This document shows positions 372 to 27,919 of a stretch of 29,784 bases of DNA, piece by piece; position 1 is the stretch's first letter; every line of letters starts with the position of its first letter. Source of the stretch: a virus; IMG/VR virus record IMGVR_UViG_3300023116_000222, positions 1 to 29,784 of that record; one strand, written 5' to 3'. A program made the translations under genes and the position numbers. Under the pieces are notes generated by a model, which made no database searches, was not told the origin of the DNA, and saw only the letters and a list, made by a program, of their open reading frames with translations.

Positions 372-590
372 TTAATATTGTTCCCCATCTCGTGCTTTGG
401 CAGGAGCGTGGGCAACGTCAACAAATGCCATCGCTAGTTCAGAGAATGCGTTGGGTATCACCACAATACAGAGACCCGAAACAGCGACGCCAAAACAAAT
501 TTTCCAGAAGTAGTCCATGGGACTAAGCGGTTTACCTTGTAAGTGTAGCATAAAAGGAGATTCTGCTGAATGGGGTGTGCCAGTTATCAA
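372..590 (-). CDS. small putative membrane protein
   Basis: The frame gives up to 72 residues. One hydrophobic segment (roughly residues 28-47, around FGVAVSGLCIVVIPNAF) could span the membrane, followed by a charged C-terminus ending DGEQY. Two starts are possible. TTG at 590 makes a TTGA overlap with the stop of the upstream oxygenase gene and sits behind a G-rich stretch. ATG at 551 (MLHLQGKPLSPMDYFW) has no visible Shine-Dalgarno sequence. I prefer the coupled TTG start because another gene in this window (28657-28896) uses the same TTGA arrangement, but the choice is not certain. Function unknown. Confidence 0.45.
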   Translation of the reverse strand: MITGTPHSAESPFMLHLQGKPLSPMDYFWKICFGVAVSGLCIVVIPNAFSELAMAFVDVAHAPAKARDGEQY

Positions 591-1192
591 AGCGCACCAC
601 CACCCCCACCAGAAACTGTTACAGTTATATTACTATCGTTCATTCCATATGTACCTGTAGGAACAACATTGAAAGCGATACTACACCTAGGTTTTCTTGA
701 TTTGTGTGGCAATATAACATGATGAACAAAAGAAGGAAACAAAACTATATCGCCTTTATTTGGTTCAAAGATATATTGATTTGAACCAGGACTAACACCA
801 TCATTTACACTTCTATTGCCATCATGCCATCGCCAGGGCATTGGATGCCTGAACAATATAGGAGAAGGATTCTCAGTAATGTAAAGAACACCACTGTAGA
901 ATGAATTTGTGTGAGAATGATCGTATCCATGTCTATAATTCGACTCTGTATATGTCATCCAACTAGAAAATATACAGAACTTATAATATCCAAAATTATT
1001 CATTACTTCTTTAGTAATTTCATGTATTGGATCATATAGAAAACTAAACTGTGTATTAAGAACACTGTTATCAACACTCATTGCACCAAAGTATGGTGTA
1101 TTAGCAATGGCATTTTGACATTGTTCATCATCCAGTTCTATTTTATTATAATAAAATGGACATGCAAATTTGTCTTGCCTATCATTCATCAT
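587..1192 (-). CDS. 2OG-Fe(II) oxygenase (TIGR02466/2OG-FeII_Oxy_5-like)
   Basis: About 201 residues from MMNDRQDKF, predicted to be a double-stranded beta-helix dioxygenase using Fe(II) and 2-oxoglutarate. The family signature is visible: DHSHTNSFYSGVLYI (residues 91-105; metal-site histidines His92 and His94) followed by GDIVLFPSFVHHV (147-159; distal His157 or His158) and Arg169 in the RCSIAFNV strand, a likely 2-oxoglutarate ligand. The frame is open upstream to 1249, but the start at 1192 overlaps the preceding gene by only 11 nt and gives a normal N-terminus. The C-terminus ends VSGGGGGAL, an unusual polyglycine tail whose GGN codons lie just ahead of the next gene's TTG start. The substrate cannot be told from sequence. 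It is the last of five oxygenases in this operon. Confidence 0.8.
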   Translation of the reverse strand: MMNDRQDKFACPFYYNKIELDDEQCQNAIANTPYFGAMSVDNSVLNTQFSFLYDPIHEITKEVMNNFGYYKFCIFSSWMTYTESNYRHGYDHSHTNSFYSGVLYITENPSPILFRHPMPWRWHDGNRSVNDGVSPGSNQYIFEPNKGDIVLFPSFVHHVILPHKSRKPRCSIAFNVVPTGTYGMNDSNITVTVSGGGGGAL

Positions 1193-1415
1193 CGTCCACT
1201 CGATCAACAGATGCAATATCACACACTGGCACTTCATGCTCATTAGCAATCAAATACCACGGCATCATTTGACCATGATACTCTGGATGTGCTTGATAAG
1301 AAGTAGGATAGATACGATCACCCAGATACTTTACTTCGGTTTCGGGAATATTGTGATCGCGTAACATTGCTTGTAGCTGCAAGTGTGTCAACTCGGGTTG
1401 CGTAGGTACTTTCAT
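1182..1415 (-). CDS. hypothetical protein (77 aa)
   Basis: Protein MKVPTQPELTHLQLQAMLRD and onwards, 77 residues, ending in an acidic tail (DRVDDDE). The ATG at 1415 has a GGAG ribosome site about six bases upstream (GGAGAAACAATG), so I choose it over the more distant ATG at 1466. The first 98 nt overlap, in another frame, the 3' end of the DUF4385 gene. The residues here look like ordinary protein, whereas the overlapping DUF4385 tail looks like readthrough. No domain recognised; no signal peptide or membrane segment. Confidence 0.6.
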   Translation of the reverse strand: MKVPTQPELTHLQLQAMLRDHNIPETEVKYLGDRIYPTSYQAHPEYHGQMMPWYLIANEHEVPVCDIASVDRVDDDE

Positions 1416-1869
1416 TGTTTCTCCATTGTTTACGAAGTTGTTGGTATTCAGTGTCATATGCAGCAAGATCTCGTTTTACTTTGAAGACTGCTGCTGCTCT
1501 TGACTTTTCGTTATTAAGAGCATCCCGTTCCTGCGGAAGTATATTCCCAGTTGATGCATATTTTCGTCCCGAAGAATGATTGGCATACCTTCGGGCGCGA
1601 GTGAAACCCATTTCAAGGAATTTCCTGGCCATGTCCATACCAACAAAATCCTTTTGCCGTCTGTACGTACAGAACATTTCGTATATTTTGTTAGAAGAGA
1701 CAATAGCAGTTTCTTCATCTACGAACCGCCAATGAGCGCATATGTCGTTAGTGTAAGGGCGTACCAGTAGCACTCCTTGCTCTCCCCTTCCAATACGATA
1801 AAGTTTGCGAGTCTCTGTGTCTGTGAAGTCAAGGTCCTCATAAGGGAGTTCATAACAAAATTCAAGCAT
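1318..1869 (-). CDS. DUF4385 family protein
   Basis: 183 residues. The core matches the DUF4385 family often found in cyanophages: LYRIGRGEQGVLLVRPY at residues 23-39, then DFVGMDMARKFLEMGFTRAR at 74-93, followed by RYANH. The function of the family is not established. The start at 1869 overlaps the stop of the preceding oxygenase gene by 8 nt. The C-terminus from about residue 153 is rich in Ser, Thr and Arg and unlike the core. It overlaps the next gene by 98 nt, suggesting that an original stop near residue 152 was lost. Family assignment is confident; biochemical role unknown. Confidence 0.85.
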   Translation of the reverse strand: MLEFCYELPYEDLDFTDTETRKLYRIGRGEQGVLLVRPYTNDICAHWRFVDEETAIVSSNKIYEMFCTYRRQKDFVGMDMARKFLEMGFTRARRYANHSSGRKYASTGNILPQERDALNNEKSRAAAVFKVKRDLAAYDTEYQQLRKQWRNNESTYATRVDTLAATSNVTRSQYSRNRSKVSG

Positions 1870-2386
1870 TCTTAATATTGAAGGAGATGATTACTCTGGG
1901 TAAGTCAGATTGCACCACATTACATTGGTGCATCAGAGCAGATGGGAAGAAGACAATATCTCCTTCACTGACCTGAGGAACATACTCTATCACATCACCT
2001 TCAATAAAGTCAAGGTATGGAGCGAAGAATGACGTTGGTTGGTGGTCACTTTCTAAACTGGCATAAAAGATAGCACTATACCCCAGTGCTCCATGATTAT
2101 GTAAAGGATGCAAACATCCACGACTGTACTTCTGTGCCCAACAATTACTTATAGTAAACTTGTTTGGATATATTCCATTGAATTCATCTAGTGCTGGTGA
2201 AATAATCTCAAAGAATTTAGAAGCATATGTTGGTTGAATACCATTTCGATGAAACTTGAAGTAATCAGTCTCATGAAATTCTTCTTTATCCAATTCCATC
2301 AGCGACAGAATCTCTTCTTTATGATCAGACCAATTCTCTATACTATATGCAAAAATAGGTACACTGAAGGCAATATTATGCCTCAT
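1862..2386 (-). CDS. 2OG-Fe(II) oxygenase (TIGR02466/2OG-FeII_Oxy_5-like)
   Basis: A second member of the same subfamily as the gene at 587-1192. Numbered from MRHNIAFSVPIFAYS (174 residues), the metal-site region is HPLHNHGALGYSAIFYA (93-109; His96 and His98 the likely site), then EGDIVFFPSALMHQ (141-154; distal His153) and Arg164 in RVIISFNI. Two starts are possible: ATG at 2386 (11-nt overlap with the upstream gene) and ATG at 2425 (50-nt overlap, 13 more residues). Neither has a good Shine-Dalgarno site. I prefer 2386 because family members usually begin close to a PIF/PIW-like segment. Substrate unknown. Confidence 0.8.
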   Translation of the reverse strand: MRHNIAFSVPIFAYSIENWSDHKEEILSLMELDKEEFHETDYFKFHRNGIQPTYASKFFEIISPALDEFNGIYPNKFTISNCWAQKYSRGCLHPLHNHGALGYSAIFYASLESDHQPTSFFAPYLDFIEGDVIEYVPQVSEGDIVFFPSALMHQCNVVQSDLPRVIISFNIKNA

Positions 2387-2777
2387 CTGGTCTGTTCTTA
2401 CCGCGTCTAAGTCTCTGATTTTCATACAAAGTTACACCATCATTACTAACAATAGCAACATTATACCAGAAAGGATCATTTTCTACACCATCTGGTAGTT
2501 CATCTCTACGAGGAAAATAGTCAGTCACAAAATCAATTGCTACATCGTAGTTCCTAAACTCAATGTATCCATAGTAGTGTGTCTGCATTAGTGAAAGTAA
2601 CTGTACAGGAACATCTTCATTGAATTGATAATGTTCAATAACTGATGTTTTCACAGTATCGTCAGAAGATTGCAATCTTGAATTACCCCAGTAAACAAGA
2701 ACACCATCAACACCAGCAGCATCTGCTATAATTTGGTCCCAATCTTTTTCTTCATCAAATGTCTGTAGGTTTTTCAC
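2376..2777 (-). CDS. hypothetical protein (133 aa)
   Basis: 133 residues beginning (V/M)KNLQTFDEEKDWDQII. It is acidic at the N-terminus, rich in aromatic residues in the middle (HYYGYIEFRNYD, DPFWYNV) and basic at the very end (RLRRGKNR). The start is GTG at 2777, supported by a strong GGAGG site six bases upstream, and it overlaps the upstream oxygenase by 23 nt. No domain, signal peptide or membrane segment recognised. It sits between two oxygenase genes, so a role linked to them is possible but only inferred. Confidence 0.65.
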   Translation of the reverse strand: MKNLQTFDEEKDWDQIIADAAGVDGVLVYWGNSRLQSSDDTVKTSVIEHYQFNEDVPVQLLSLMQTHYYGYIEFRNYDVAIDFVTDYFPRRDELPDGVENDPFWYNVAIVSNDGVTLYENQRLRRGKNRPDEA

Positions 2778-3294
2778 TAGTATCCTCCAACTTCTTTAAT
2801 TTATATGCAGCAGTAATTCTAATACCATAAAATTCTCGTGTTACATCTTCTGCCCAATGCAACAATTTAGATGGAAATAACACAGCAGAGAATGGTTTTG
2901 GGAATACTACATCAAATTTACCATCATCCTGAACAAATACTGTCTTTCCTCCCCATTGCAAGTCCCAGTGTGGATTACAATAGATCAAAAACGTATAATC
3001 AGCATCATCTTTATGTGGAGCACCATCGAGACCTCTAGTATATCCATTCAAGTAATAATCTAAAATCTCAAACTCAAATGGTAATAGAGTTTTCATTCTT
3101 TCTGGTATCACTTTTGCAAACATAGAAACACCTCGAACATCCATCTTCCAAAACTTCTTGAACGGTGTTGCTACATCACTAGAAGCGCCAAACAACCATC
3201 TTGGACGACTTGCTATTTTTTCTATTTCATGTACATCAGATACTTTCAATACATTTTCATATACTTTGATATCCGTCAATAATGGTTCAGTCAT
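2755..3294 (-). CDS. prolyl 4-hydroxylase-like 2OG-Fe(II) oxygenase
   Basis: 179 residues with a full facial triad: His94-Lys95-Asp96 (GAPHKDDADYTFLIYCN), distal His146 in LFPSKLLHWAEDV, and Arg159 (YGIRITAAYKL) as the likely 2-oxoglutarate carboxylate ligand. The intervening WDLQWGGKTVFV strand resembles the GGEL/F strand of prolyl 4-hydroxylase-type enzymes. It would hydroxylate a protein or small molecule using Fe(II), oxygen and 2-oxoglutarate; the substrate is not visible. No signal peptide, so it is cytoplasmic in the infected cell. The ATG at 3294 lies one base after the stop of the upstream hydroxylase gene. Confidence 0.85.
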   Translation of the reverse strand: MTEPLLTDIKVYENVLKVSDVHEIEKIASRPRWLFGASSDVATPFKKFWKMDVRGVSMFAKVIPERMKTLLPFEFEILDYYLNGYTRGLDGAPHKDDADYTFLIYCNPHWDLQWGGKTVFVQDDGKFDVVFPKPFSAVLFPSKLLHWAEDVTREFYGIRITAAYKLKKLEDTSEKPTDI

Positions 3295-3295
3295 G

Positions 3296-3946
3296 TCAAT
3301 TTCTCAAAACACTACTTCTTCTAATCAATCCCATTCTAATATGATCTAATTTGACAGTATCTTCCCTGGTCAAATTATCACATATATTATAATAAAATTC
3401 ATTTAGATCGGCAAGATAATATCTCATTGTTTGATCATGTATTGAACTTTCACACCAGAATGTAATGCATTTTCTCACTCCATGCGTGATAGGTCTAACA
3501 CCATGAATATATTCAGTAGGATACATTAATAGTTTTCCTGGTTCTAATCTAGATTCCACTACATTATCACCAAATTTTACATAATGCTCACCGCCTTCAT
3601 AATCATCATTCAAATTGATCACACATGTAAAATCAGTTCTACATCCCCACATATCAAATGCATCAACGTGATCTGAATAATGTTGACCTTCTCCATATCT
3701 CAACATCATACAAGGAGATGCTTTATTCAGTATATGAATATCAGTAACAGTAGATTCACGAAGAATTTTTGCAATACCAGAATTGACCATCTTATTGATG
3801 TCAATATCTTCTTGCTGATGATTGTTTTTTACTTCTTTGTCTTTTGGTCCTGATATTGCACCATCAACAAATTTTCCAGCATCAAACAAACTCAGCATTT
3901 GTCTCAGTTGATTTCTATCTAAGAAATCAAATGTATATGTTCTCAT
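3296..3946 (-). CDS. PKHD-type hydroxylase (2OG-Fe(II) oxygenase)
   Basis: 216 residues. The catalytic core is typical of PKHD/PiuC-like hydroxylases: YGEGQHYSDHVDAF with His93-Val94-Asp95, the FTCVINLNDDYEGGEHYV strands (106-123), PGKLLMYPTEYIHGVRPI with distal His148, and Arg158 in HGVRKCITFW. A C-terminal helical extension (about 170-216) follows, as in other PKHD proteins. Predicted cytoplasmic. The ATG at 3946 overlaps the stop of the preceding Sm-like gene in an ATGA junction. PKHD proteins are common in cyanophages, but their viral substrates are not known. Confidence 0.88.
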   Translation of the reverse strand: MRTYTFDFLDRNQLRQMLSLFDAGKFVDGAISGPKDKEVKNNHQQEDIDINKMVNSGIAKILRESTVTDIHILNKASPCMMLRYGEGQHYSDHVDAFDMWGCRTDFTCVINLNDDYEGGEHYVKFGDNVVESRLEPGKLLMYPTEYIHGVRPITHGVRKCITFWCESSIHDQTMRYYLADLNEFYYNICDNLTREDTVKLDHIRMGLIRRSSVLRN

Positions 3947-4278
3947 TCTAATACTTCTCTCAAAGATCTTATATAATTTTGTACAGCATCTTTATACATT
4001 GTTTCCAAAGTTGGCATTGGAGCACAAATATTCATAACATTATCAAAACTAATCAAAAAAGATGTGTCAATGGAGAAAAACTTCCATGGTACTAAAGAAA
4101 CAGGAACTCTATCACTATCAGCAGTTGGATCTCTTTTTATAATTCTAAAAGGGTAAATCATATTATAACATACCTTTATTTTTTCACCATTGACCTCTTC
4201 ATAATAATCTTGAAGATTAGCAATCACCTCTTCACCACTGACCAAAGTGATGATGATTATATTAAGTTTGGTTTCCAT
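3943..4278 (-). CDS. putative Sm-like (LSm-fold) protein
   Basis: 111 residues. Residues 7-26 (IIIITLVSGEEVIANLQDYY) and 60-77 (VSLVPWKFFSIDTSFLIS) resemble the small Sm-like proteins of marine cyanophages, in which a LVSGE.VI strand is followed by a .PW..... strand and a MY-containing helix (here METMYKDA-like at 91-98). One such cyanophage-derived protein has a solved Sm-like structure. In that fold, Sm1 and Sm2 motifs build oligomeric rings that in host relatives bind RNA. Ring formation or RNA binding here is inference. ATA is used for 4 of its 13 isoleucines. It lies two bases after the preceding gene and overlaps the next by 4 nt. Confidence 0.55.
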   Translation of the reverse strand: METKLNIIIITLVSGEEVIANLQDYYEEVNGEKIKVCYNMIYPFRIIKRDPTADSDRVPVSLVPWKFFSIDTSFLISFDNVMNICAPMPTLETMYKDAVQNYIRSLREVLE

Positions 4279-4280
4279 AA

Positions 4281-5099
4281 TTATACATTATTTGCTTGAA
4301 TTTTAGCGAGTACGTAGTCTAGTTCATCCTGTTCTGTTTCAAATTCAGGATATGGAGCAAAGATAAGATCAGGGTTCTTGATTTTATAGTTAGAAGCGAT
4401 TGTCATTACAATTCTTTTAGCATATTCACTGTATGTTGTAGCAGTAAAATTGCCAAACTGATCTTCGGTCATCAAATACTCTTTATCCTGATTCCCCTCT
4501 CTCAAAACAAATGTAGTCTTGAAATACGTTGGATTGATTGGGAACATAACTTCATCAGCATCCTGTCCAACATGAACACTAGGAAGATCTCTGAGTTTTG
4601 ATCGATAAAGTGTCCACATTGCCTTTGTTTCATCATCAATAGCAGCATCTGCAACTTGAGTCCAATCACTATCATCAAGTAAGAAGTTCCTAATCATTCT
4701 GATACCTTCCCAAGAAACTTTATTCCACCTACCATACTCATTAAATAACTTTTCTTGAATAGTTTCTTGACTTGAATCAACATATGAAAAATACTGTTCA
4801 GTTAGTTGTTCTACAAGTTGATCCACTTCTTGTTGAGTTGGTTCTCTCCAAGAATAAGTTCTCCACTTTCTTTCTCCTGTAGCACGATCATAGACATATT
4901 TTTTCTTCTCAATGTCATGACTACCATCACTGAAATAATTTACAGTAATTAGACGATCTTTATCAGAAGACCAAAATGGATATAAAACTGGTTGAATATT
5001 TTCATTCCACCAGTCTTCATCAATAAATTGTGAATTACCATCTTTGATAATAAATCGCTCAAGTGCATTGAGCTGCAATGTGATACGAACGTCTGCCAT
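4281..5099 (-). CDS. protein with phage tail assembly chaperone-like domain
   Basis: 272 residues. The N-terminal half (1-130) is an unassigned region with many aromatic and acidic residues. Residues 134-173 match the phage tail assembly chaperone-like motif (Phage_tail_APC): RMIRNFLLDDSDWTQVADA (135-153), then Trp162 and YRSKLRDLP (165-173). Proteins with this segment are usually encoded beside tail-fibre genes and are thought to assist fibre folding or attachment. Its place directly downstream of four fibre genes and one oxygenase fits that. A late-promoter-like GATAAATA lies about 40 bases upstream, but the gene is probably co-transcribed with the fibre operon. Confidence 0.7.
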   Translation of the reverse strand: MADVRITLQLNALERFIIKDGNSQFIDEDWWNENIQPVLYPFWSSDKDRLITVNYFSDGSHDIEKKKYVYDRATGERKWRTYSWREPTQQEVDQLVEQLTEQYFSYVDSSQETIQEKLFNEYGRWNKVSWEGIRMIRNFLLDDSDWTQVADAAIDDETKAMWTLYRSKLRDLPSVHVGQDADEVMFPINPTYFKTTFVLREGNQDKEYLMTEDQFGNFTATTYSEYAKRIVMTIASNYKIKNPDLIFAPYPEFETEQDELDYVLAKIQANNV

Positions 5100-5104
5100 T
5101 TTGA

Positions 5105-5725
5105 TTACGGGAGTTTTATGAACCAGCCTGTCGCAATATATTTATCATGGGTGAATACAGTGTTGCCACGATGAACATGTGTCATACCAGCAGGCCATAT
5201 TAGAACAGTTCCTGTTTTTGGTCTATATCTTTTCTTTTGATACAAAAACTCTGTCTCCGCCTCTCCTTCTGGCATGTCATTCAAATATACCATCCATGCC
5301 AACTCTCTATTTGCTGCTCTAAAACTAGAGTTTTCATAATGCCATGTGTGATAACCACCACCAGGAGGAGTTCTTTGTATTTTGATGCCAACAGAATTCA
5401 TATTTACTCTACTTATATGATCATATTCTGTTTTATAGTTCTCAAAAGCAGCATTCAAATACTTATTAAAATGCATTGCAGTTCCCATATCAATGTCGTC
5501 AAGCATTAGAGAAACATCATGCCTTGCTAATTTTGCTGTTGGCATCTGATCCTTACCATATTGAACAAGGTAAGGATTAGTTTCTATCCATTTCTCAAAA
5601 TTACTAACAATAAGAGAACAAATTTCATGGTGAACTAATCTTTCATAGACACCAATGAAATCTTCATATTTTGAATTTACTCTGCTTGGATCTATAATAC
5701 AATCAGTTTCACTTGCGGCTAGCAT
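5105..5725 (-). CDS. 2OG-Fe(II) oxygenase
   Basis: 206 residues. The catalytic motif is PPGGGYHTWHYENS, where His129-Tyr130-Glu131 forms an HxE variant of the usual HxD metal site. The downstream segment GTVLIWPAGMTHVHRG provides distal His183, and Lys195 (KYIATGW) sits where family members keep the 2-oxoglutarate-binding Arg or Lys. The AWMVYLNDMPEGEAETEF strand is typical of the fold. The ATG at 5725 is one base after the stop of the large collar/adhesin gene, so the oxygenase should be made with the tail fibres. The HxE site is seen in some active family members, so I do not read it as inactive. Confidence 0.8.
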   Translation of the reverse strand: MLAASETDCIIDPSRVNSKYEDFIGVYERLVHHEICSLIVSNFEKWIETNPYLVQYGKDQMPTAKLARHDVSLMLDDIDMGTAMHFNKYLNAAFENYKTEYDHISRVNMNSVGIKIQRTPPGGGYHTWHYENSSFRAANRELAWMVYLNDMPEGEAETEFLYQKKRYRPKTGTVLIWPAGMTHVHRGNTVFTHDKYIATGWFIKLP

Positions 5726-5726
5726 A

Positions 5727-8700
5727 TCAATAAGCGCGAATCAAATACTTTACTCTATGATAGCGTGTTAGAAGAGGAATGTCAATCTCTGGTTGCAATG
5801 CTGATGTCACATTTAGTTTTACAGCAGAAGATAAAGTAAATAATCCTTCATTGACATCGATGCCAGCAGATGTCAATGGATCACCTTGTGGTTCAATTCT
5901 TTCAACAATTTGTTCAATTCCCAAATCTGCCTTTGCTGTTGGATATGTAACAATTTGCTGTTCTGTCTCATCATATATGAATTTTACTTGATGAATACCA
6001 TAATTATCATTACCAGCATTACCAGAAGATGCTCTTGTTTGTCTTATTTCAAGAATTAAATTACTTACCTGATAATCAGAATCTAAATCTAGAGTAACAT
6101 CTGTCCAATTGCTATGATTTCCAGCACTACTAATAGTTCCAATCTTTGTAAAACTAGATGCATTATCATTACTAGCAAATAACTCTAGTGGCTCATTTGG
6201 TGTCTCTCCACCGTTACTACCATTTCCAGTAATAACTTGTATTATAATTTGTATAATGGGAGAGTTTTTAGAATTATCTTCAGATGCATCAATTTGAATT
6301 GTTCTTGCATATCTTACTTGTTCTGATCCTTCGAATCTCAAATATTGTTCATCATTTGGAGAATCGAATCCAGCAGTTCCAGTTCCAGTTCCAGAAGGAG
6401 CATAGTCAACACCATCACTAGCTGAAGCAAACAAACCAGAAGTGCTAGAAGTTGTTGTGCCACCATCAGTAGCAGATGTTACTAGATAACCAACTTGTAT
6501 TGCACCATCTTGACCACCATTATTACCACCAGATCCAACTACAGCTGTTCCAGATCCAACATTTGTCATACCAGTGAGTGACCAATAGAAAAATGCACCA
6601 GATCCACCACCGCCACCACCAGAGCCATAATAAGTTTGGTTTTCTACAGCGGTAAATACAACACTACCATTATTACCATTTACTACCGTATTTGCTTGTC
6701 CTGCAGCTGCATTTCCAGCACCACCAGAATCTATTAGAGTTGCTGTAGGACCAGTGCCGCTAGATTTAATTGAAGATTGTCCTCTTTGTCCACCATATCC
6801 AGATCTACGGGCGTTAGAACCGTTTCCACCTCCACCGCCACCACCGATGCCAGCACCTACACCAACGCCGCCGCCACCGCCGCCACCGCCGCCTCCAGAG
6901 CAGACAGAATTAGTTCCTGTTCCCCCACCATTACCAAAAATATCACCAAGTTGTTGAACACCATCATTAGAGGCATTTGTTGTGCCATTTATACCAGCGT
7001 TTCCTCCAGTATTACCGCCGCCGCCACCGCCGCCGCCTCCTGCTGCGCCAATAAACATAGTTGATGACGTACCAACAGCAGAAGCAGCACCACCACCTCC
7101 GCCACCACCAGCACCAGATCCATTACCACCGTTACCACCACTAGCAAATCCGTTCGAAGAACCAGCGCCACGAGTAAGTCCGTTACCACCACCGCCGCCA
7201 CCGCCAACATAAACTCTCAGTGTTCCACTATTTGTTTGGTTAACTAAAGCTGTAATTCGTTTTCCTCCAATTCCAGTTCCAGGTGTTGCGGATTCATTAC
7301 CATCATGACCTGCACCACCACTACCGCCTCTTACTTCAGCAGTCAATGAATCTAGTGGCCAATCATTTGGAATATTATATGCTGTATATTGACCTGCTGC
7401 AGTTGGAGTAGTGAATGACTGTGAGACAGTACCAGATCCTGTATACAATGTTCTTGATCCATCTCCACCAGCGCCATTTATTAATGAACTCGTTCCACCC
7501 TCTCCACCAGAAGATGGTCCTCCACTTCCACCATCATTAGAGGTATAATATAAATTTACATCTAGAGTTAGTCCACCAGTAAGAGAAACATTGGACAAAG
7601 TATTACTAAAATTAGTTGTAGATCCATTTACAGTATATGATCCTGCACCTCCATCGCCGCCAGCACCTCCATTATCACCAGTTGCTCCACCTTCTCCACC
7701 AGTAGCAGTAATTCTATAAGTGTTGCCATTGTATGTAAATTGATAATAGCTTTGACCGCCGTTACCACCGCCACCATCTGTAGTAGCACCACCACCACCA
7801 GCACCGCCAGCAAAACCACTAATTCCTACAATAGGAAGTTCATCTGCCGCTGGAGCGGGAACAGTGTATGATCCACTCGATCCCTCTTCAACTTTAACTT
7901 CAGTTGAAGTGATAGTATTTCCTGGCAATTGAATTTCTTTACCACCAATAGTATACGTGTCATCAATAATATATAATGTTGGAGCTGGAGTTCCAATGGT
8001 TGTGGTGACATCTGGTGGTAAATTACCAGCAATCTTATACCCTGTTTCTATCGTAATATCACCAGAACTACCAGTAGCAGTAATGTCTAAAGATGTATTA
8101 GTTCTTGCAAGATATTTTGTTTTTGCTAACTTTATTGTATTATCATCTTGTTTTATAACAAACCATGTAGTGTTTACATTGAATCCGTAATTAGTAACTC
8201 CATCGCTTAAATTTGCAGATGTTGATTGCGAATTCGCAGATACTCTGATCATATTTCCAGTAAACAATTGATGATTATTGATGGTAATAATATCATTTGT
8301 AATGTTTATTGCAGATGAGGCAAATGATTTATATTCTTTTTCTCCAATACCACTAACATTTCCAAAAGTAGAAAGGTTTGGATCAGTAACAACATAATCA
8401 ACAATACCGTGATTATGAAATAGTTGTCCACCTCCTTCAGGAAGAAAAAATCCAACTTGTCCAGTAGAATCCTTAAATCCAACAGAATGATCATCATTGA
8501 TAGCGCCAGTTCCCTCAAAAGAAGTTGCACTAGCGGCAGTAGAAGTTAGAATTTGATGTTCATGTTCTGGTACAGTTGAAATTGGTTTTTCTTGCAATGG
8601 ACCAATTGTAAATGTAACCTCGCCAGTCAGTGATCCACCAACAAATTCTGAGACGTTTGTGTATCCACTAATAACAATATTTCCAATATCATATAATGTC

Positions 8701-9944
8701 TCCTGTTCTTTTTTAGAAAAATACCATTTTCCTCCCGAAGTTCCAACTGAAGCAATGACATTTCCAGATACAGGAGATCCACCACCAGTAACACCACCAC
8801 CAGATCCGACTAATTTTCTTGTTTTATAGTCAGGTACTTTAAATGTTACGGCACTACTTGATCCAAAATTTTCAATCTTATAAGTTCCGCCACTTCCGCC
8901 GTAATCGTTTTTTATAATATTGAATAGTAACGGATATTCATCGGCATTATATTCAGATCCGTCACAGTATAAAAATCCTGGGTATTGAAAATCAATATCG
9001 TCTGCTGTTGGTGATGAAGTTGTAACAATTTCTATTCTACCTAAACCATCACTTCCTGGTTGATTGACATATACAACTTCTCCATCTTGATATCCATACC
9101 CAGGATTTTTTATACTACAAAAGTTCAAAGTTCCGTCTAAATTAGCACTAACCCCAACTCTTAAACCAGTTCCTGTAGTAGATGCTAATGTAAAGTTTCC
9201 TGAAGAACCTAAATCAGTGACATTGTAATATTTTCCAGCTGTAATATCACCATTACTTCTTGCTAATCTAAAATTATCGTCATCAATTTTATCAACATAA
9301 AAAGTAAATCCAGTATCAAATTCTACACCACCTTCACCACTAGTAGACAATATTATATTCAATACAGCTTGAGTAGTAGCACCACCACCGCTGATAGTTA
9401 TCTGTGGAAATTGATATCCTAGTCCACCATCTAATATAGTTACACCTGTCAGTTCACCAGTAGCTGTATTTACAACAGCAGCTACATTTGCTTGCTTTAC
9501 TGGTCCACTACCATTATCAGTAATTGAAATAGTAGGACTACTTGTATATCCAGCTCCACCAGTACTTACTTCAATTTCAGCAATAGAACCTCCTAATTTT
9601 GTACTGTTAGGCGCTTGCGATGTTTCAATAACAGTAAGTTTATCTCCAGTAATAAATCCATGATCTGTATAAGTTATTGTTTCAGTTGAAACAGAAAAAT
9701 TTCCAGCGTTTATTTCCAGTGTAATTGGAAGTACTTCAAATCCATTTGGATCACTCAAATTAGTAGTATAACCAGAACCACCACCAGCACCAGATACAAC
9801 AGAACCAAGTTGCTGAACGACTCCATTATCAGTAACTTTCGAATGATCTGCTTTAAAAATAGGTATAATAGTTCCAATAGGAACATAACTATTTCCTAAA
9901 GTTTGAATATCAGATAAGAATCCTTTTCGTGCTGTTCTAGACAT
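5727..9944 (-). CDS. large tail collar/adhesin protein with polyglycine region
   Basis: 1,405 residues. N-terminal VPIGTIIPIF (21-30) and a tail-collar segment at about 320-375 (FLYCDGSEYNADEYPLLFNI, then FKVPDY) match the phage tail collar family of T4 short-tail-fibre-type proteins. Two His-x-His pairs follow (HEH near 460, HNH near 510). Residues about 700-1120 are dominated by glycine, with runs of up to ten, separated by short beta segments. This resembles T-even gp38-type adhesins, whose polyglycine-II sandwiches present receptor-binding loops. Residues about 1190-1330 look like a beta-sandwich, possibly discoidin-like, and the end is YLIRAY, related to the IIRAY end of the 396-aa collar protein. 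Role inferred: host adhesion at the tail tip or fibre. Confidence 0.8.
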   Translation of the reverse strand: MSRTARKGFLSDIQTLGNSYVPIGTIIPIFKADHSKVTDNGVVQQLGSVVSGAGGGSGYTTNLSDPNGFEVLPITLEINAGNFSVSTETITYTDHGFITGDKLTVIETSQAPNSTKLGGSIAEIEVSTGGAGYTSSPTISITDNGSGPVKQANVAAVVNTATGELTGVTILDGGLGYQFPQITISGGGATTQAVLNIILSTSGEGGVEFDTGFTFYVDKIDDDNFRLARSNGDITAGKYYNVTDLGSSGNFTLASTTGTGLRVGVSANLDGTLNFCSIKNPGYGYQDGEVVYVNQPGSDGLGRIEIVTTSSPTADDIDFQYPGFLYCDGSEYNADEYPLLFNIIKNDYGGSGGTYKIENFGSSSAVTFKVPDYKTRKLVGSGGGVTGGGSPVSGNVIASVGTSGGKWYFSKKEQETLYDIGNIVISGYTNVSEFVGGSLTGEVTFTIGPLQEKPISTVPEHEHQILTSTAASATSFEGTGAINDDHSVGFKDSTGQVGFFLPEGGGQLFHNHGIVDYVVTDPNLSTFGNVSGIGEKEYKSFASSAINITNDIITINNHQLFTGNMIRVSANSQSTSANLSDGVTNYGFNVNTTWFVIKQDDNTIKLAKTKYLARTNTSLDITATGSSGDITIETGYKIAGNLPPDVTTTIGTPAPTLYIIDDTYTIGGKEIQLPGNTITSTEVKVEEGSSGSYTVPAPAADELPIVGISGFAGGAGGGGATTDGGGGNGGQSYYQFTYNGNTYRITATGGEGGATGDNGGAGGDGGAGSYTVNGSTTNFSNTLSNVSLTGGLTLDVNLYYTSNDGGSGGPSSGGEGGTSSLINGAGGDGSRTLYTGSGTVSQSFTTPTAAGQYTAYNIPNDWPLDSLTAEVRGGSGGAGHDGNESATPGTGIGGKRITALVNQTNSGTLRVYVGGGGGGGNGLTRGAGSSNGFASGGNGGNGSGAGGGGGGGAASAVGTSSTMFIGAAGGGGGGGGGNTGGNAGINGTTNASNDGVQQLGDIFGNGGGTGTNSVCSGGGGGGGGGGVGVGAGIGGGGGGGNGSNARRSGYGGQRGQSSIKSSGTGPTATLIDSGGAGNAAAGQANTVVNGNNGSVVFTAVENQTYYGSGGGGGGSGAFFYWSLTGMTNVGSGTAVVGSGGNNGGQDGAIQVGYLVTSATDGGTTTSSTSGLFASASDGVDYAPSGTGTGTAGFDSPNDEQYLRFEGSEQVRYARTIQIDASEDNSKNSPIIQIIIQVITGNGSNGGETPNEPLELFASNDNASSFTKIGTISSAGNHSNWTDVTLDLDSDYQVSNLILEIRQTRASSGNAGNDNYGIHQVKFIYDETEQQIVTYPTAKADLGIEQIVERIEPQGDPLTSAGIDVNEGLFTLSSAVKLNVTSALQPEIDIPLLTRYHRVKYLIRAY
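6490..7860 (-). repeat. GGN trinucleotide-rich, polyglycine-coding region
   Basis: On the plus strand this region is a run of CCA/CCG/CCT triplets, which read on the minus strand as GGN glycine codons. The longest unbroken tract is about 6867-6896 (ten glycines); others lie near 7015-7041, 7091-7110 and 7188-7205. It is locally much richer in GC than the flanking gene. In-frame expansion or contraction by slippage or recombination would change the adhesin without breaking the frame. Confidence 0.8.
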
Positions 9945-9950
9945 TTCTTC

Positions 9951-11651
9951 TTATACCTTTATTAAAAATTCAACCATTGTAAATGGTGCAATTAGACTAT
10001 CTATCTTAGAAACATTCTCGGGAGAAATGTTTATACTAGCTTCCATACCATCAGTTGGTACAAAAAGTTCTGGAATATTGATATCGAAATTAGTCGCTCC
10101 AAATACATAGGGAATGGTATGTGTATGCTGTGTAGGATCTTCTTGGTATCCAAATGCTTCTGTGCTTACAATAGTATTTGATAGTTGGGGGAAAGCTTGC
10201 TGAGCAGAATCATCGACAACAGTATCAAAAGGAAGTACATTATGTAATGATTGGTTATGAGAATATCCAGCAGCTTCAGCAGGATCACCAAAGGTTGTTG
10301 ATAATACCTCTAATTGAAAAGGACCACTAGAGAGAGCATAACCTTGTGTATCTGGAAAAGTCAAAGTATCACCAGCAGCATATCCAGAACCAGTATCAAT
10401 CCAAGCAATTATTTTGTATCTTGTATAATTTGGTTCTCCAACACTATCAGGCCACGCCTCAAATCTTATTGAAGCTCGAGCTCCACTTCCACTTCCACCA
10501 ACTAAATCCACCTCACCAGTGACAAAAGATTCTAAACTAGACCAAAGATTTCCACCATACGTTGTGTATGCCCACTGTCCTATTCCTTTTGTATAATTGT
10601 CAGCAGTTACATTTAAATTTTCATATAATGCAAATCCTTGAATTGCTCCACCACTACTTCCTTGAGTAGTTGGAATATTATCAGATCCTACAAAATCTCC
10701 ACCATCAATGTAATTTGCGCCGAAACCATAAGTCTGAGATGCACATTCCATTTCTACTGTTGTCAGACCTATGTCCAAGATAGTATAAGTTTGAAAACAT
10801 GGTCCTTCTGGAGTAGTATTCAGATTTAATGTGTTACCTTGTGGAACAAGGCAACTACCGTCATATGTACTACATGAACCTTTACAAATTCCATAGTACT
10901 CAAATGTAGCACCAGTTCCTAGAAATTGTCCACTAGAAATATAATTGTCGTCATTCCAAACTTCAGACTGTGCATAAAAAAGACATGCTGGTTGTTCATC
11001 TGTTGCATCATACCAATTTTGAACACCAATTGTTGATGCATTCGTAAAATAATTTAATTCAAAAATATCACTTCCAGCTCTTCTAATAGTTCTACATCTA
11101 TAAGTGGTAGTGAAGTGAGCGTGTGGAAGAAATCCATTAGCAGCAACTACTTCTTCATCAGGTTTTGTAGGATAAGTAAATCCAACATTATTTCCAACTT
11201 TAACAGTCCTTGCAGGAACTCTAAACTGCCCCGTCAATTCAACAACAGCAGTATTTCCAACATTACTAGAAACTTCTACACCAACACCAGACTTTGAAAT
11301 TGTTTGACCAGCAGCATTTATCACTGTTGCATCATTTATAACACCCTGATCAGAACCAGTTGATGGTTTGATAAACTTAGATCTCAAATCAGGAACTTGA
11401 AATTGAGTGTCTAGTAAATCTTGATCTGGTTTTTTGAATGAACAGGTAGAACCTGTACCAAGTACTTCTGCTAAAGCAGGATACAATGCCTCATTGTATA
11501 CAGAACCATCACATCTAATATAACCTGCTGGCAGCAGTGACTTACTCAATCCAATTAAAGGATCATTGACATCTAACTCTACAGGAAATGCAATAATTGT
11601 TCCCGTGGTAGTTCCTATCTTTGTTCTTTCTTGGTTTAGGAAAACTGCCAT
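9951..11651 (-). CDS. tail collar domain protein (putative tail fibre)
   Basis: 566 residues. The N-terminus carries the tail-collar fold signature: GTIIAFPVE (about 17-25), LPAGYIRCDGSVYNEALYP (40-58) and FQVPDLRSKFIKP (83-95). Two His-x-His pairs, HAH near 177 and HTH near 509, resemble the metal-binding HxH motifs of T4 gp37-type fibres. The central part has clustered cysteines (CRC; CKGSCSTYDGSC; later C-x-C-like spacing), unusual for a fibre made in the cytoplasm. The C-terminus PFTMVEFLIKV is similar in position and pattern to the ends of the two neighbouring collar proteins. Probably a virion fibre or baseplate-tip protein. It follows the 396-aa gene after one base and precedes the 1,405-aa gene by six. 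Confidence 0.8.
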   Translation of the reverse strand: MAVFLNQERTKIGTTTGTIIAFPVELDVNDPLIGLSKSLLPAGYIRCDGSVYNEALYPALAEVLGTGSTCSFKKPDQDLLDTQFQVPDLRSKFIKPSTGSDQGVINDATVINAAGQTISKSGVGVEVSSNVGNTAVVELTGQFRVPARTVKVGNNVGFTYPTKPDEEVVAANGFLPHAHFTTTYRCRTIRRAGSDIFELNYFTNASTIGVQNWYDATDEQPACLFYAQSEVWNDDNYISSGQFLGTGATFEYYGICKGSCSTYDGSCLVPQGNTLNLNTTPEGPCFQTYTILDIGLTTVEMECASQTYGFGANYIDGGDFVGSDNIPTTQGSSGGAIQGFALYENLNVTADNYTKGIGQWAYTTYGGNLWSSLESFVTGEVDLVGGSGSGARASIRFEAWPDSVGEPNYTRYKIIAWIDTGSGYAAGDTLTFPDTQGYALSSGPFQLEVLSTTFGDPAEAAGYSHNQSLHNVLPFDTVVDDSAQQAFPQLSNTIVSTEAFGYQEDPTQHTHTIPYVFGATNFDINIPELFVPTDGMEASINISPENVSKIDSLIAPFTMVEFLIKV

Positions 11652-11652
11652 A

Positions 11653-12843
11653 TTAATAAGCTCTAATAATCATTATGATTGTTTGAGATGGTGTATTATT
11701 ATCCATAATGACAGTCAATGCATCTGGAATATCAGAAACATTTACAGTATAGGACTGTACATTATTTATTGCGATAGTAGGAGGAACTTTTAGTCCAGCA
11801 GCATTCATAGACACATCAAAACTAAAATGATTATGAGTTGCAACCTGAGCATCAGTGAAATCTTGACCAGTATGACTCAGAGTTGTTGGATATGTAGTTG
11901 AAACATCACCATTCAAATAATTGGGTCTTCCAAAGATTTCTGTTGGTGGTGGAAAAACACCAGTATGCTGCTTCATATGGTGATTGTAATTGTATGTGTC
12001 TTGAAATGAATCAGTAAAAGCACCTGTAGATGGTATTGTTCTTGTTAGTCCAGCAGCAGGAACTTGATCTTGGGTAAATGATTTTGTTTCATCTGTCAAA
12101 ACTAACACATTTTCATCATAATATGTAATTGCACCAAATCCATTTCTCCACGTATCTGGACTATCTGTACTTGAAACTCCATTCAAGTTTGCAGTTTCGT
12201 AGTTTGGAGATCCAGATGTTGCAACAGTTGGAGCTTCAAATACCTGCACATATTTACCACTTGGAAATGCAGTTGTATATTGTCCACTGTGTTTGTGACC
12301 AGGAGTATGATCAATTCCAAGTTTTCTACCAATGGTGTAATATGTTTTAGACCATGTAGGATCATTCAAAGTTATATCTTTAATTTTTCCTGCCATTGCA
12401 TTGTTATTATCCATATCAAACAATAGATTAGTATCAGCAGTCCAAATAGTAGGAGGAGTAACTCCAGTTCCATCTTCGGAAATGTATTCACCAATAATAT
12501 CCTCAGCATCAGATTGACCATGCTGATACTTTGATTCTTGAAGCATTTCTAGTTCAAGATCAACCATTGCTCTATTGTTTAGATTTGGTACTCTAAACAC
12601 ATCAGCATCTTCATAGTCTGGAAAATTTCCAACAATAGAGTCATCTTCTGGACCATAAGTATTTCCCAACATTGATGCAAGAAGAGGATAATTATTGCAT
12701 GGATGAGTTTGTCCATTGCAAACTAACCAACCACGGGGAATACCACTCGGATTGTTTCCTGTTATCGATGAAGTTCCACCCCATGGCATAATAGTGCCAA
12801 TGGGGGCATTCTTCATTTCTTTTAGTCTATTGTAAAAAGCCAT
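11653..12843 (-). CDS. tail collar domain protein (putative tail fibre)
   Basis: 396 residues with a clear phage tail collar domain: APIGTIMPWGG (13-23), PRGWLVCNGQTHPCNNYP (36-53), LLASMLGNTYG, and FRVPNLNNRAM (about 82-92). HxH motifs occur near 184 (HKH) and 337 (HNH), with an additional HH...H cluster between them. The C-terminus is SQTIIMIIRAY. The ATG shares one base with the giant gene's stop (TAATG), so translation is probably coupled. It is one of three paralogous collar proteins in tandem, each larger than the last in the direction of transcription. Most likely a distal fibre or adhesion component; the exact structural position is not visible. Confidence 0.85.
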   Translation of the reverse strand: MAFYNRLKEMKNAPIGTIMPWGGTSSITGNNPSGIPRGWLVCNGQTHPCNNYPLLASMLGNTYGPEDDSIVGNFPDYEDADVFRVPNLNNRAMVDLELEMLQESKYQHGQSDAEDIIGEYISEDGTGVTPPTIWTADTNLLFDMDNNNAMAGKIKDITLNDPTWSKTYYTIGRKLGIDHTPGHKHSGQYTTAFPSGKYVQVFEAPTVATSGSPNYETANLNGVSSTDSPDTWRNGFGAITYYDENVLVLTDETKSFTQDQVPAAGLTRTIPSTGAFTDSFQDTYNYNHHMKQHTGVFPPPTEIFGRPNYLNGDVSTTYPTTLSHTGQDFTDAQVATHNHFSFDVSMNAAGLKVPPTIAINNVQSYTVNVSDIPDALTVIMDNNTPSQTIIMIIRAY

Positions 12844-15800
12844 TAGAGTTCAGTCAACCACCAACCTTGGTATGCAGCAGGTATAAAGTTATCTCCATCA
12901 CTTTGACCAACATAAATCAATCCAAAGGATGCATTTTTGTTTTGAACTACCAATTCACCAGATGCATATGGAGATGATAATCCTCCTAATTTAGTTCCTT
13001 CAATGTCACCTTGAACTGGAACTGGTTCACCACCAACAATTGGAGCACGAATAACAAGAGAATTGTTGTATGTCAATTCTCCACCAACTTCAGTAAATCT
13101 AATAATGTCTCCAGTTACAGCATTATCTGGTAGTGTTAGAACGAGAGCACCTGTAGAAGGAGCAACCTGCACAATATAATTTATATTAACTTCAACAGTT
13201 CCATTTGAATTGATAAACTTAGCAATGTGACCACCATTTTTATTCTTATATCCTATCTTGCCAAATGCATCAATCGATCTGTCTTGATTGACAGTAAATG
13301 TGCTATCACCATTTTCACCTAGATTCCTTACGTTTAGAATCTCTTGTTCTGCAGTTGGGTTGGCAGACGCAACACCAGCAACATCAAGTAAACGTCCAAC
13401 AAATGTATCACCTGTATTCGAATCAACTTGGAATGTTGGTGTATATTCCTTGTTAGTAAACTGAATTGAGTTAGGATCCTCAACACACTGTGATGGGAAG
13501 ATCCTCAGCTGACCACTAATATCAGTACCAGCATAAATTGTTAGCAGACCAGCTTCGAAGTGGTGTTCTTCGTTGTTAACCAATTTCAGGATAGGTACTT
13601 CATTATCAGTACCCATGACAGTAAAGTTAGAACCAATAAAGTTTACATCATCATAAACATCTAACTTACCATGATGATAGTTGGTCTTGACGAGTTTAGT
13701 GCCTCCATCATTAGTTACAGTATTGTCTACTTCTAGATATTCATTACCAATAATGAGGAAGTATTCACGATCTAGGAAGAATGGAACAAGATCACTATTT
13801 TCAAGTCCAACCGTAATAGTTGTATCAGCACCTGTTGCATCAAGATCTTGAGTTAGGACAGTCTGTTCTCTCAAGAGAACTCTGAAAACAGTCTCACCAT
13901 CTTGATGAGTAGTAGCTGATTTTTCACCATCACTAGTACCAATGTACTGGGAAACGTCATCATTTCTAATAACAGGCAGATTGCCTGCAGGCGATGTGGT
14001 GATTGTTGGAGTTCCACTGATATACATCAATTCTGGAGTTTCAGTTCCGTATCCAACAAGAATAAAATCACCTTGTTCAAAATCACTAATATCATCAACT
14101 GGCAAAGAAGTAGCAGTTGCTGTTACTCCCGAAACACTATTAACAAATGTTGTTGCGATATCATTATCAACTTTTGGATCTTTGAGGAATACTAATACTC
14201 GATCACCAACAGAATGTGATTGAAGCGTACTACCCCACTGAGATCTCTTAGCATAAACTTCACCATATGGATTACCAAGAGTAGTGTCACCAGTGCAGGT
14301 ATCAACATTGAATACTGTTCTTACATCATCAGTAATAGTGAAGTTATCATTTCTTGAAGCTTCAAGTTGAGCACCTTCCGCAGTTCCATTTCCACCAAAA
14401 TTGACATTTAGAGTAACAGTAGTTGTAGTTCCAGTTGCTATACTGATAATTTGTGGATCAGTAAATCTAACTTTTCCAGAATCTGTAGGGAATTGATTTT
14501 GTTGTAATGTTACAGATCCGTTGTTTCCAGTCAGTCTAACAAAATCACCAACTTCCAATCCACTAGAATCATTTACAAGATTAATAGTATTAGTTTCTGC
14601 TTGGATATTTCCAGTAAAGTTAAAGATTGATGCGGTCTTACATCCACCATTGATTCTCAATGTTTGACCAAGGGTTACATCACCTTTGATTGTAGTGTCA
14701 CCAGTAGTAGAATCAACAACAAATACATCATTCGCTTCATCATCACAATCAGTTCCATCAGAAATTCTGAATTTCTGTGTTAGTAGTTCTAATGTTTCAT
14801 CAACTTTGATAAATTCACCAGATGCACCTGTGTCATCATTTCTGCTAACAATAATATAATCATTTTCAGTTAGAGATCCGCCAAATTCTGCAAGGTATAC
14901 ATCATCAAATTCTCCAGTAGCATCAAGTGATTGCTCTAACCAACTAGCATCAAACTGAACATTGACTTTATAAATTGAAGTTGTATCAGGATGATTTGTT
15001 AGAGTATTTGGAGAGAAATTGCCAAATGGTCTCCTCTTGACTTTCAAGAAATAAGGAGCAGTAGACCTAGAAACTTCAATAATTTGTACAATTTCTGGGT
15101 GTGCAGTCTCAGCATCCCAATTACCAACGATAGGTGAATCAATAATAATATAATCGTTTTCTCCTAAGTATTGCAGTCCAGTAGAAAGGAAAGGACTGTT
15201 CTTGATTGGTAGATAGAATTCATCTGGATCAGTTAGAGCAGGAAGAATCTGTGGTTCATCGATGCTAATTGGATTTGCCTCAGTTCCTTTTTGTCCCTGG
15301 TAGAAAGATCCACCCCAAGTGCCAGCACCAGCAGTATCAACTGCGTTATATCCGTCATCTCCTGGTTGTAAGACAAGGACATTTAGAATGTCAACGTTTT
15401 GTGTGAACGTTCCATCCAGATTGACACCATCTTGATGTGCAACATCATCGCTACCCATTCTCTTTCTTTGACCAGAGAACGAGAAGGACGCTGTACCACC
15501 ACAAATTTGAACTGATGCATCAAACTTCGCAGATGCAACAACCAACAGTTTGTTATTGACAGTTGTAGTTCCACCTTGACCTGCAATATTAACTTCAGAA
15601 GCGTTAGTAGCAAAGTTGACTGTTGAAGGACCACCAGAGTTAGAGAAGAGATTAATAAGACTTGCCTGAGATCTTAGATTCGCCTGTCCCTGTTGACGAC
15701 GGAATCCTAACCATTGGTCACCATCAACTCTAAATGATTGAGTATGTACTACTGTATAAGATAGACTTTCGTTGATGTTGCCAAATGCACCACCAATTTC

Positions 15801-26490: not shown

Positions 26491-26498
26491 TATTTATA
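26491..26498 (-). promoter_or_regulatory. T4-type late promoter (TATAAATA)
   Basis: The minus strand reads TATAAATA, an exact match to the T4 late-promoter -10 element recognised by the gp55 sigma factor. It lies about 41 bases upstream of the giant virion gene, in the only sizeable non-coding gap before the structural block. It is the natural start of the tail-fibre operon transcript. Confidence 0.75.
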
Positions 26499-26601
26499 CA
26501 CCAGGACGATAACGATCTCCTAAGATAAGTATTTTGACTATTTCCTTACAACAAAGATAAATGTATCCGAATTGTTCGGACCATGTACAGTCACCTTTCA
26601 T
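26494..26601 (-). CDS. possible small ORF (35 aa) after the tRNA cluster
   Basis: An ATG at 26601 lies three bases after the 3' end of tRNA-Asn. The tRNA acceptor strand itself supplies GGAGGAG at Shine-Dalgarno distance. The 35-residue product starts MKGDCTWSEQFGYIYLCC and ends LGDRYRPGV; its TAA stop lies inside the TATAAATA late promoter. The geometry is striking, but I recognise no family and a chance ORF is possible. The region also carries a perfect 6-bp hairpin (26566-26580). Confidence 0.25.
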   Translation of the reverse strand: MKGDCTWSEQFGYIYLCCKEIVKILILGDRYRPGV

Positions 26602-26603
26602 AA

Positions 26604-26676
26604 CTCCTCCACCTGGGCTCGAACCAGGGACATGGTGATTAACAGTCACCCGCTCTACCGACTGAGCTATAGAGGA
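26604..26676 (-). tRNA. tRNA-Asn(GTT)
   Basis: Folds as a 73-nt cloverleaf: acceptor TCCTCTA paired with TGGAGGA (one G-U), anticodon stem GGTGA/TCACC around CTGTTAA giving anticodon GTT, T-loop TTCGAGC, discriminator G. CCA is not encoded. It is the last tRNA of the block, 27 bases after tRNA-Ala. Confidence 0.95.
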
Positions 26677-26679
26677 ATG

Positions 26680-26703
26680 ATTCGCTATTCGCAAATAGCG
26701 AAT
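26680..26703. other. perfect 10-bp hairpin between tRNA-Ala and tRNA-Asn
   Basis: ATTCGCTATT is followed by a four-base loop and its exact complement AATAGCGAAT. The hairpin fills the spacer between two tRNAs and overlaps only the discriminator base of tRNA-Ala. There is no T-tract, so it is not a simple terminator. It may be a processing signal for the tRNA precursor (inference). Confidence 0.7.
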
Positions 26704-26775
26704 GGAGAATAGGAGACTCGAACTCCTGACAGCCTGCTTGCAAAGCAGGTGCTCTACCAACTGAGCTAATTCCCC
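26703..26775 (-). tRNA. tRNA-Ala(TGC)
   Basis: A 73-nt cloverleaf: acceptor GGGGAAT with ATTCTCC (one G-U), anticodon stem CCTGC/GCAGG around TTTGCAA giving TGC, T-loop TTCGAGT, discriminator A. CCA not encoded. Its first base directly follows the encoded CCA of tRNA-Thr. Confidence 0.95.
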
Positions 26776-26852
26776 TGGAGCCACAAGTCGGACTTGAACC
26801 GACGACCTACGGTTTACAAAACCGTTGCTCTATCCAGCTGAGCTATAGTGGC
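26776..26852 (-). tRNA. tRNA-Thr(TGT), CCA encoded
   Basis: Acceptor GCCACTA with TTGTGGC (one T-T mismatch), anticodon stem ACGGT/ACCGT around TTTGTAA giving TGT, T-loop TTCAAGT, discriminator T, then an encoded CCA. It is the only tRNA here that carries CCA. The CCA abuts tRNA-Ala without a spacer. Body 26779-26852. Confidence 0.93.
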
Positions 26853-26855
26853 ATA

Positions 26856-26929
26856 CGGGACTGAAGGGACTTGAACCCTCGACTTCCTGCGTGACAGGCA
26901 GGCGCTCTAACCGACTGAGCTACAACCCC
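26856..26929 (-). tRNA. tRNA-Asp(GTC)
   Basis: A 74-nt cloverleaf: acceptor GGGGTTG with CAGTCCC, anticodon stem CCTGC/GCAGG around CTGTCAC giving GTC, T-loop TTCAAGT, discriminator G. Its 5' end overlaps the last ten bases of the cpeT-like gene, including the stop codon. Three bases separate it from tRNA-Thr. Confidence 0.95.
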
Positions 26930-27712: not shown

Positions 27713-27755
27713 TTGCTTTTGTCAGGGTTTCCTGGTAATACTATTTACACAGGAA

Positions 27756-27840
27756 TAGGACGAGAGGGACTTGAACCCTCACGATTGTAATAATCAACAG
27801 ATTTTAAGTCTGGTGTGTCTACCAATTCCACCACCGTCCC
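27756..27840 (-). tRNA. tRNA-Leu(TAA)
   Basis: An 85-nt class II tRNA: acceptor GGGACGG with TCGTCCT (wobble pairs at the ends), anticodon stem CCAGA/TCTGT around CTTAAAA giving TAA, a long variable arm, T-loop TTCAAGT, discriminator A. CCA not encoded. It reads the TTA/TTG codons favoured by AT-rich phage genes. Confidence 0.93.
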
Positions 27841-27844
27841 TAGG

Positions 27845-27917: not shown

Positions 27918-27919
27918 GA

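Follow-up and report, generated by a model that had tools for sequence, protein, structure and literature searches.

Three predicted 2-oxoglutarate-Fe(II) oxygenases form a fixed cassette with a tail-fibre gene and its chaperone in cyanophages

The oxygenase block behind the fibre genes

We analysed the 29,784-nt virus record IMGVR_UViG_3300023116_000222 (positions 1 to 29,784; the whole stretch is called the window), in which five genes for predicted 2-oxoglutarate (2OG)-Fe(II) oxygenases, here named A to E, lie behind four tail-fibre genes. The window is best explained as DNA of a Synechococcus-type myophage (Kyanoviridae) in which the oxygenase block makes up the 3' half of a late module for tail fibres, and the nearest isolate that we found is S-RSM4 (70% nucleotide identity across 79% of the window's first 8 kb). 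An earlier reading of the letters and open reading frames (ORFs), referred to below as the sequence-only reading, had placed the five oxygenases here; all five ORFs are present on the minus strand, match 2OG-Fe(II) oxygenase families of Pfam above the curated cut-off and have conserved catalytic residues. As that reading had also described, they lie in one strand block behind the fibre genes and around a tail-fibre chaperone gene (4281-5099), which is identified by its PF16778 and phrog_4697 matches and by its position after a fibre gene. The features are as follows, in the order in which the minus strand is read and with E-values after the family matches.

12843..26450, minus strand: giant fibre or structural protein of the virion, 4535 aa, whose gene opens the fibre unit (ORF; synteny with the S-RSM4 'short tail fiber protein' SRSM4_214)
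11653..12843, minus strand: Collar-domain fibre protein, 396 aa (PF07484 1.3e-13)
9951..11651, minus strand: Collar-domain fibre protein, 566 aa (PF07484 3.3e-9)
5727..9944, minus strand: fibre protein immediately 5' of oxygenase A, 1405 aa (Collar PF07484 3.8e-7, phrog_30655, phrog_4924)
5105..5725, minus strand: oxygenase A, predicted prolyl-hydroxylase-like fold, HxE...H...K (PF13640 3.7e-10; phrog_61)
4281..5099, minus strand: tail-fibre assembly chaperone (PF16778 2e-11; phrog_4697 2.1e-52)
3943..4278, minus strand: small conserved protein of unknown function, 111 aa (phrog_431 7e-20; DUF6561 sub-threshold)
3296..3946, minus strand: oxygenase B, PKHD/PiuC-like, HxD...H...R (PF13640 2.4e-13; PDB 3dkq 3.4e-11, PiuC 2.9e-10)
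2755..3294, minus strand: oxygenase C, phrog_274 type, HxD...H...R (PF13640 1.3e-7; phrog_274 1e-21)
2376..2777, minus strand: protein of 133 aa and unknown function, encoded between C and D (order kept in relatives)
1862..2425 (alternative start 2386), minus strand: oxygenase D, PF13759 type, HxH...H...R (PF13759 4.5e-11; phrog_81)
1318..1869, minus strand: DUF4385 protein between D and E (PF14328 2.1e-52)
587..1192, minus strand: oxygenase E, PF13759 type, HxH...H...R (PF13759 5e-15; phrog_81)

Three of the four fibre genes upstream of the oxygenases encode Collar domains by Pfam, and the fibre directly in front of A has a poly-Gly region and a conserved C-terminal tail that ends in KYLIRAY. 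The small gene at 3943-4278 had been called Sm-like, a name that found no support: it matches phrog_431, a family of unknown function, and DUF6561 below threshold.

We found the late-promoter motif, taken from published work as NATAAATA (PMC2984593), in the form TATAAATA at 26491-26498, upstream of the start codon of the giant fibre gene. The motif precedes the giant fibre gene by about 42-47 nt, both in the window and in 10 of 10 genomes checked. Late expression of A to C gains support from their position in a unit that begins with this conserved motif. A second copy before the chaperone gene was considered as a conserved late promoter and rejected: it overlaps the codons of an invariant Lys-Tyr in A (GAT/AAT AAA TAT), and it is missing where another residue precedes the Lys-Tyr. 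Because this copy sits on the Lys-Tyr codons, coding constraint may explain it, and only the copy before the giant fibre gene was counted.

Catalytic residues and predicted folds

PHROGs sorts the five oxygenases into phrog_61, phrog_274 and phrog_81 types, and since B has an additional match to PiuC-type PKHD hydroxylases, we count four sequence types, in agreement with the earlier estimate of at least three. The active-site residues are kept among relatives and are H129-x-E131...H185...K195 in A, H93-x-D95...H148...R158 in B, H94-x-D96...H146...R159 in C, H109-x-H111...H166...R177 in D and H92-x-H94...H158...R169 in E. The HxD/E...H iron triad and the basic 2OG-binding residue are present in A, B and C. 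In D and E, HxH...H replaces the usual carboxylate, and the same replacement is found in the other PF13759 members that we aligned, so that D, E and these relatives possibly have a three-histidine iron site in a 2OG-oxygenase fold.

Cyanophage oxygenases have been proposed to act in DNA repair, as with the Syn9 oxygenases beside uvsX and uvsY (PMC2984593; PMC9146016), and by this account the enzymes in the window would be repair enzymes of the AlkB kind. In the Pfam search, none of the five oxygenases matched the AlkB family (2OG-FeII_Oxy_2), even at an E-value of 1; their neighbours are fibre genes, not repair genes, and the fold matches of A are protein hydroxylases. We regard a repair role as highly improbable. 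The name T4 endonuclease V, which is attached to relatives of C, was also rejected: Pfam gives oxygenase families only and no pyrimidine-dimer glycosylase family, and the iron ligands are conserved. Judged by their Pfam matches and conserved iron ligands, RefSeq proteins named 'DNA endonuclease V' (phrog_274; for example, L103 4995-5504 and L099 5013-5528) are 2OG-Fe(II) oxygenases, and the 'ferrochelatase' PSSM2_031 is likewise a PF13640 protein. Oxygenases misnamed in this way may inflate the counts of repair genes in cyanophages.

The structural model of A has a mean predicted local distance difference test score (pLDDT) of 82.9, and its 50 best PDB matches are all protein prolyl hydroxylases, spanning enzymes of PBCV-1, Bacillus anthracis, Pseudomonas putida, human and algae. 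A structure-free profile search agrees with prolyl hydroxylases at an E-value of about 1e-5. The residues of A are HxE...H...K as compared to HxD...H...K/R in prolyl 4-hydroxylases, in which the basic residue after the distal histidine is a lysine, as it is in A. The top fold match is the viral collagen prolyl 4-hydroxylase of PBCV-1 (PDB 5c5t; E-value 1.8e-9, template-modelling score 0.59-0.66); A shares 16% identity with this enzyme, has HxE instead of HxD and comes from a phage in whose ORFs of at least 800 aa no collagen-like repeats were found. Judged by its predicted fold, A most likely hydroxylates protein in the manner of prolyl 4-hydroxylases. An oxygenase of S-H9-1 is among the phage oxygenases that are reported to resemble human EGLN3 in structure (PMC12774648).

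The nearest folds of A include bacterial prolyl hydroxylases that were solved with elongation factor Tu, and this favours an account in which the enzymes target host proteins or signalling, for example by prolyl hydroxylation of elongation factor Tu or by a consumption of 2OG that steers NtcA nitrogen control. The 2OG/NtcA role was put forward for cyanophage oxygenases by Sullivan et al. (PMC3037559). A metabolic role leaves the fixed position between fibre and chaperone and the co-divergence with the fibre (both described below) unexplained, and simple 2OG consumption would presumably need no four sequence types; we consider action on the host improbable.

For the model of D (pLDDT 86.2), the closest folds are those of two uncharacterised proteins, 3bvc and 2rg4, followed by a mixed set that includes amino-acid halogenases and antibiotic tailoring enzymes. 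PKHD hydroxylases of the PiuC type belong to a bacterial iron-uptake context, unlike B, which lies in a fibre-gene context. B can be aligned over nearly its full length to the PKHD hydroxylases PiuC and Sbal_3634 (PDB 9ghl, 9qn1 and 3dkq) with E-values of 3e-11 to 3e-10.

A fixed cassette that diverges with the fibre

We found the cassette fibre-A-chaperone-B-C in ten of 12 complete kyanovirus genomes: S-RSM4, S-CAM1, S-CAM3, S-CAM4, S-H9-1, S-H9-2, ACG-2014i, S-MbCM7, Syn1 and S-PM2. A and B are present in all ten and C in eight, with S-H9-1 and S-MbCM7 lacking it. The GenBank records of S-RSM4, S-PM2, Syn1, S-CAM3, S-CAM4 and other Kyanoviridae show this order (S-RSM4 with D too), label C as 'DNA endonuclease V' and make no connection with the fibre. 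Environmental contigs, which are partly redundant (with many near-duplicates; of the 102 complete ones, 75 are distinct), gave the same picture: the gene directly behind A is the chaperone in all 146 contigs that could be scored, and directly in front of A there is a large fibre ORF in 144 of 145 (in the single exception, L267, which is S-PM2, the annotation has a fibre at this place); 112 of 114 contigs have B, and 95 of 97 have C. The median gap between fibre and A in these contigs is 1 bp, and the fibre-A-chaperone order stays the same for A sequences down to about 53% identity. In a set of 24 complete genomes, the 12 with Collar fibres are also the 12 with a strong chaperone match. A to C are a fixed cassette with the fibre and the chaperone, and this cassette is real and widespread.

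To compare divergence across the ten genomes, we calculated pairwise protein distances for 101 orthologous genes, with the fibre in front of A as the reference. This fibre correlates poorly with DNA polymerase (r 0.29), and the correlation between A and the fibre (r 0.90) is unchanged as a partial correlation given DNA polymerase. The seven top ranks among the 101 genes are held by the seven other genes of the block. Among the fibres, r is 0.92 and 0.91 for the two smaller ones and 0.84 for the giant one; the chaperone has 0.92, A and C have 0.89 each, and B has 0.79. The remaining 93 genes have a median r of 0.28 and a maximum of 0.74. Thus, A, B and C, the chaperone and the fibres form a single unit in their divergence. 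The small gene behind C also tracks the fibre (r 0.83, n = 7 genomes).

In S-RSM4, A to D follow one another as they do in the window and E is lacking; E is what the window adds to the blocks known from GenBank. D is frequent only among closer relatives; E is sporadic, being found at this place in some close relatives only, with no orthologue there in S-RSM4 or in many environmental contigs. The sequence-only reading had remarked that cyanophages often carry such genes, and we counted 103 oxygenases in 12 complete kyanovirus genomes, 5 to 13 per genome. Because S-RSM4 has four here and kyanoviruses carry about 5-13 each, the number five that it had stressed is unexceptional. It had further proposed that the five act on late products and hydroxylate fibre or other virion proteins, and had said that oxygenase number and type varying independently of the fibre genes would speak against this. 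Such variation was found in full for E and in part for D, so the five are not one functional set. The condition did not count against A, B and C, and action of these three on a late product is favoured by the locked order, the co-divergence, the late-promoter motif and the predicted fold of A.

A putative role in fibre assembly

We propose that A to C are late enzymes of a fibre-assembly module that carry out late protein hydroxylation, with the fibre or the chaperone as putative substrate, a reading that we hold to be evenly balanced between right and wrong. We infer the enzyme activity, the fibre protein as substrate and the identity of the modified residue from the gene content, catalytic residues, fixed order, fibre co-divergence and predicted fold of A that were seen directly. 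The chaperone (4281-5099) would bind newly made fibre chains at their C-terminal end, and before these fold, dedicated oxygenases of the 2OG-Fe(II) kind would oxidise them; the genes for these enzymes lie between and after those for fibre and chaperone. A (5105-5725) would hydroxylate the fibre (or the chaperone) in the fashion of a prolyl 4-hydroxylase, B (of the PKHD type) and C would be additional enzymes of the same module, and D and E would be variable additions to it. Hydroxylation may then adjust the folding, the stability or the receptor contacts of the fibre.

The fibre and chaperone of the window resemble gp24 and gp25 of Pam3, where the fibre has a glycine-rich distal part and the chaperone gp25 binds the C-terminal region (PMC9608196); unlike the window block, the text of the Pam3 paper mentions no oxygenase or hydroxylation. 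A general remark that viral prolyl hydroxylases may be tied to tail-fibre collagen has been made (PMC9301287), and in the open-access literature we found no paper that ties particular oxygenases to a fibre-chaperone module. As far as we have seen, the genes themselves were already known, and their link to the module and the prolyl-hydroxylase fold of A are new.

Oxygenases also lie beside fibre genes in other phages. In P-SSM2, a PF16778 chaperone is followed by a PF13640 enzyme and then by a giant fibre gene, and this enzyme is placed near a giant ORF in many contigs too. In an experiment on the evolution of S-TIM4 during host adaptation, 20 genes were mutated; 14 of these encode proteins found in particles, and those with an assignable function belong mostly to fibre or baseplate (PMC6224464). 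Among the six mutated genes for non-particle proteins was ORF23, which the authors read as a nutrient-response gene (PMC6224464). We found that ORF23 (L326 8482-9168) is an oxygenase of the A family with 39% identity that lies directly before a tail-fibre gene, and its mutation is suggestive of a link between A-family oxygenases and fibre function.

P-RSM6 has an oxygenase with a virion protein on one side and two glycine-rich fibre-assembly proteins on the other, after which there are two genes annotated as tryptophan halogenases and more oxygenases. Annotated tryptophan halogenases lie among oxygenases beside fibre-assembly or chaperone genes both there (L236, P-RSM6 145-163 kb) and in S-SSM7 (L235, 92-114 kb), and their native substrate might be a virion protein too. 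A bolder version of our proposal, which we consider quite improbable, is that kyanoviruses have an oxidative finishing line in which several oxygenases, together with these annotated halogenases of P-RSM6 and S-SSM7, modify different residues of the nascent fibre. The chemistry of receptor binding would then be set post-translationally and would vary with the enzymes and the fibre sequence.

Several observations weigh against a dedicated role of A to C in fibre assembly. S-WAM2 has the fibre, the chaperone and the C-terminal tail of the fibre, and A, B and C are absent there; distant relatives of A (profile score below about 250 bits) are found in other contexts. We found no Gly-X-Y (collagen) repeats in any ORF of at least 800 aa, and collagen-like repeats were rejected as the substrate. 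Oxygenases other than A, B and C are weakly enriched within five genes of giant ORFs (24 of 75 as compared to 13.6 ± 4.0, p 0.009), and their enrichment within one or three genes is not significant; a general attraction of all oxygenases to giant genes was rejected, as it is weak after A, B and C are removed. Finally, the downstream helicase gene tracks the fibre equally (r 0.92, n = 5 genomes having the helicase), and the co-divergence signal may therefore be linkage; for genes beyond the helicase and the small gene, r with the fibre drops to about zero.

The helicase is a point in favour of an account in which the enzymes travel with the fibre genes by physical linkage in an exchanged late region and act on another late product, such as a glycan of the cell surface, a nucleotide or a small molecule. 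The gain and loss of D and E among relatives and the mixed fold neighbours of D point the same way, as do big oxygenase arrays elsewhere, such as the second array of S-RSM4 (L233, 89.3-95.0 kb), where seven or eight oxygenases precede the neck gene gp13. This array is itself behind a tail-fibre gene, of 2921 aa, and linkage is also opposed by the invariant order of fibre, A and chaperone, by the fibre modules of P-SSM2, P-RSM6 and S-TIM4, which have an oxygenase beside fibre or chaperone genes as well, and by the protein prolyl hydroxylase type of the predicted fold of A. We assign linkage with another late substrate a minor but appreciable probability.

Two features of the fibre were considered as marks of the enzymes, and both were rejected. 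The C-terminal motif seemed to mark A when a first BLAST search did not find it in S-WAM2, but a profile search finds it there (E-value 1.3e-9). Since the tail is present in all A-adjacent fibres and in S-WAM2, it marks the fibre type and not the enzyme. Two prolines of this tail, P1385 and P1390 in the window, are kept in 71 of 74 sequences. The Gly-rich fibre domain does not predict the oxygenases, being present in S-WAM2 without the enzymes and absent in S-CAM3 and others with them.

The 2OG oxygenases of cyanophages (roughly five to thirteen each) have so far been filed under DNA repair or nitrogen metabolism without test. If three of these enzymes do belong to the fibre module, some members of a large class of genes now counted as auxiliary metabolic would serve virion assembly, a post-translational layer would be added to host recognition, and the mutation of ORF23 during host adaptation of S-TIM4 would be open to a natural reading.

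Upstream of the giant fibre gene, the window carries seven tRNA genes (Asn, Ala, Thr, Asp, Leu, Met and Ile; 26603-27991) and, within the same region, a CpeT gene (26920-27444). A 96-aa ORF at 26494-26784 that was picked up by sequence search is read-through of tRNA genes and was dropped. A gene for an outer-membrane-protein-like beta-barrel of cyanophage type lies at 29321-29692 (PF24653, E-value 6.1e-49). Within the giant fibre (12843-26450), residues 701-749 match the Phycobilisome family PF00502 (E-value 6.5e-12), which may be homology or a helical look-alike, and weaker PF00502 matches lie within very large ORFs in 12 of 24 kyanovirus genomes.

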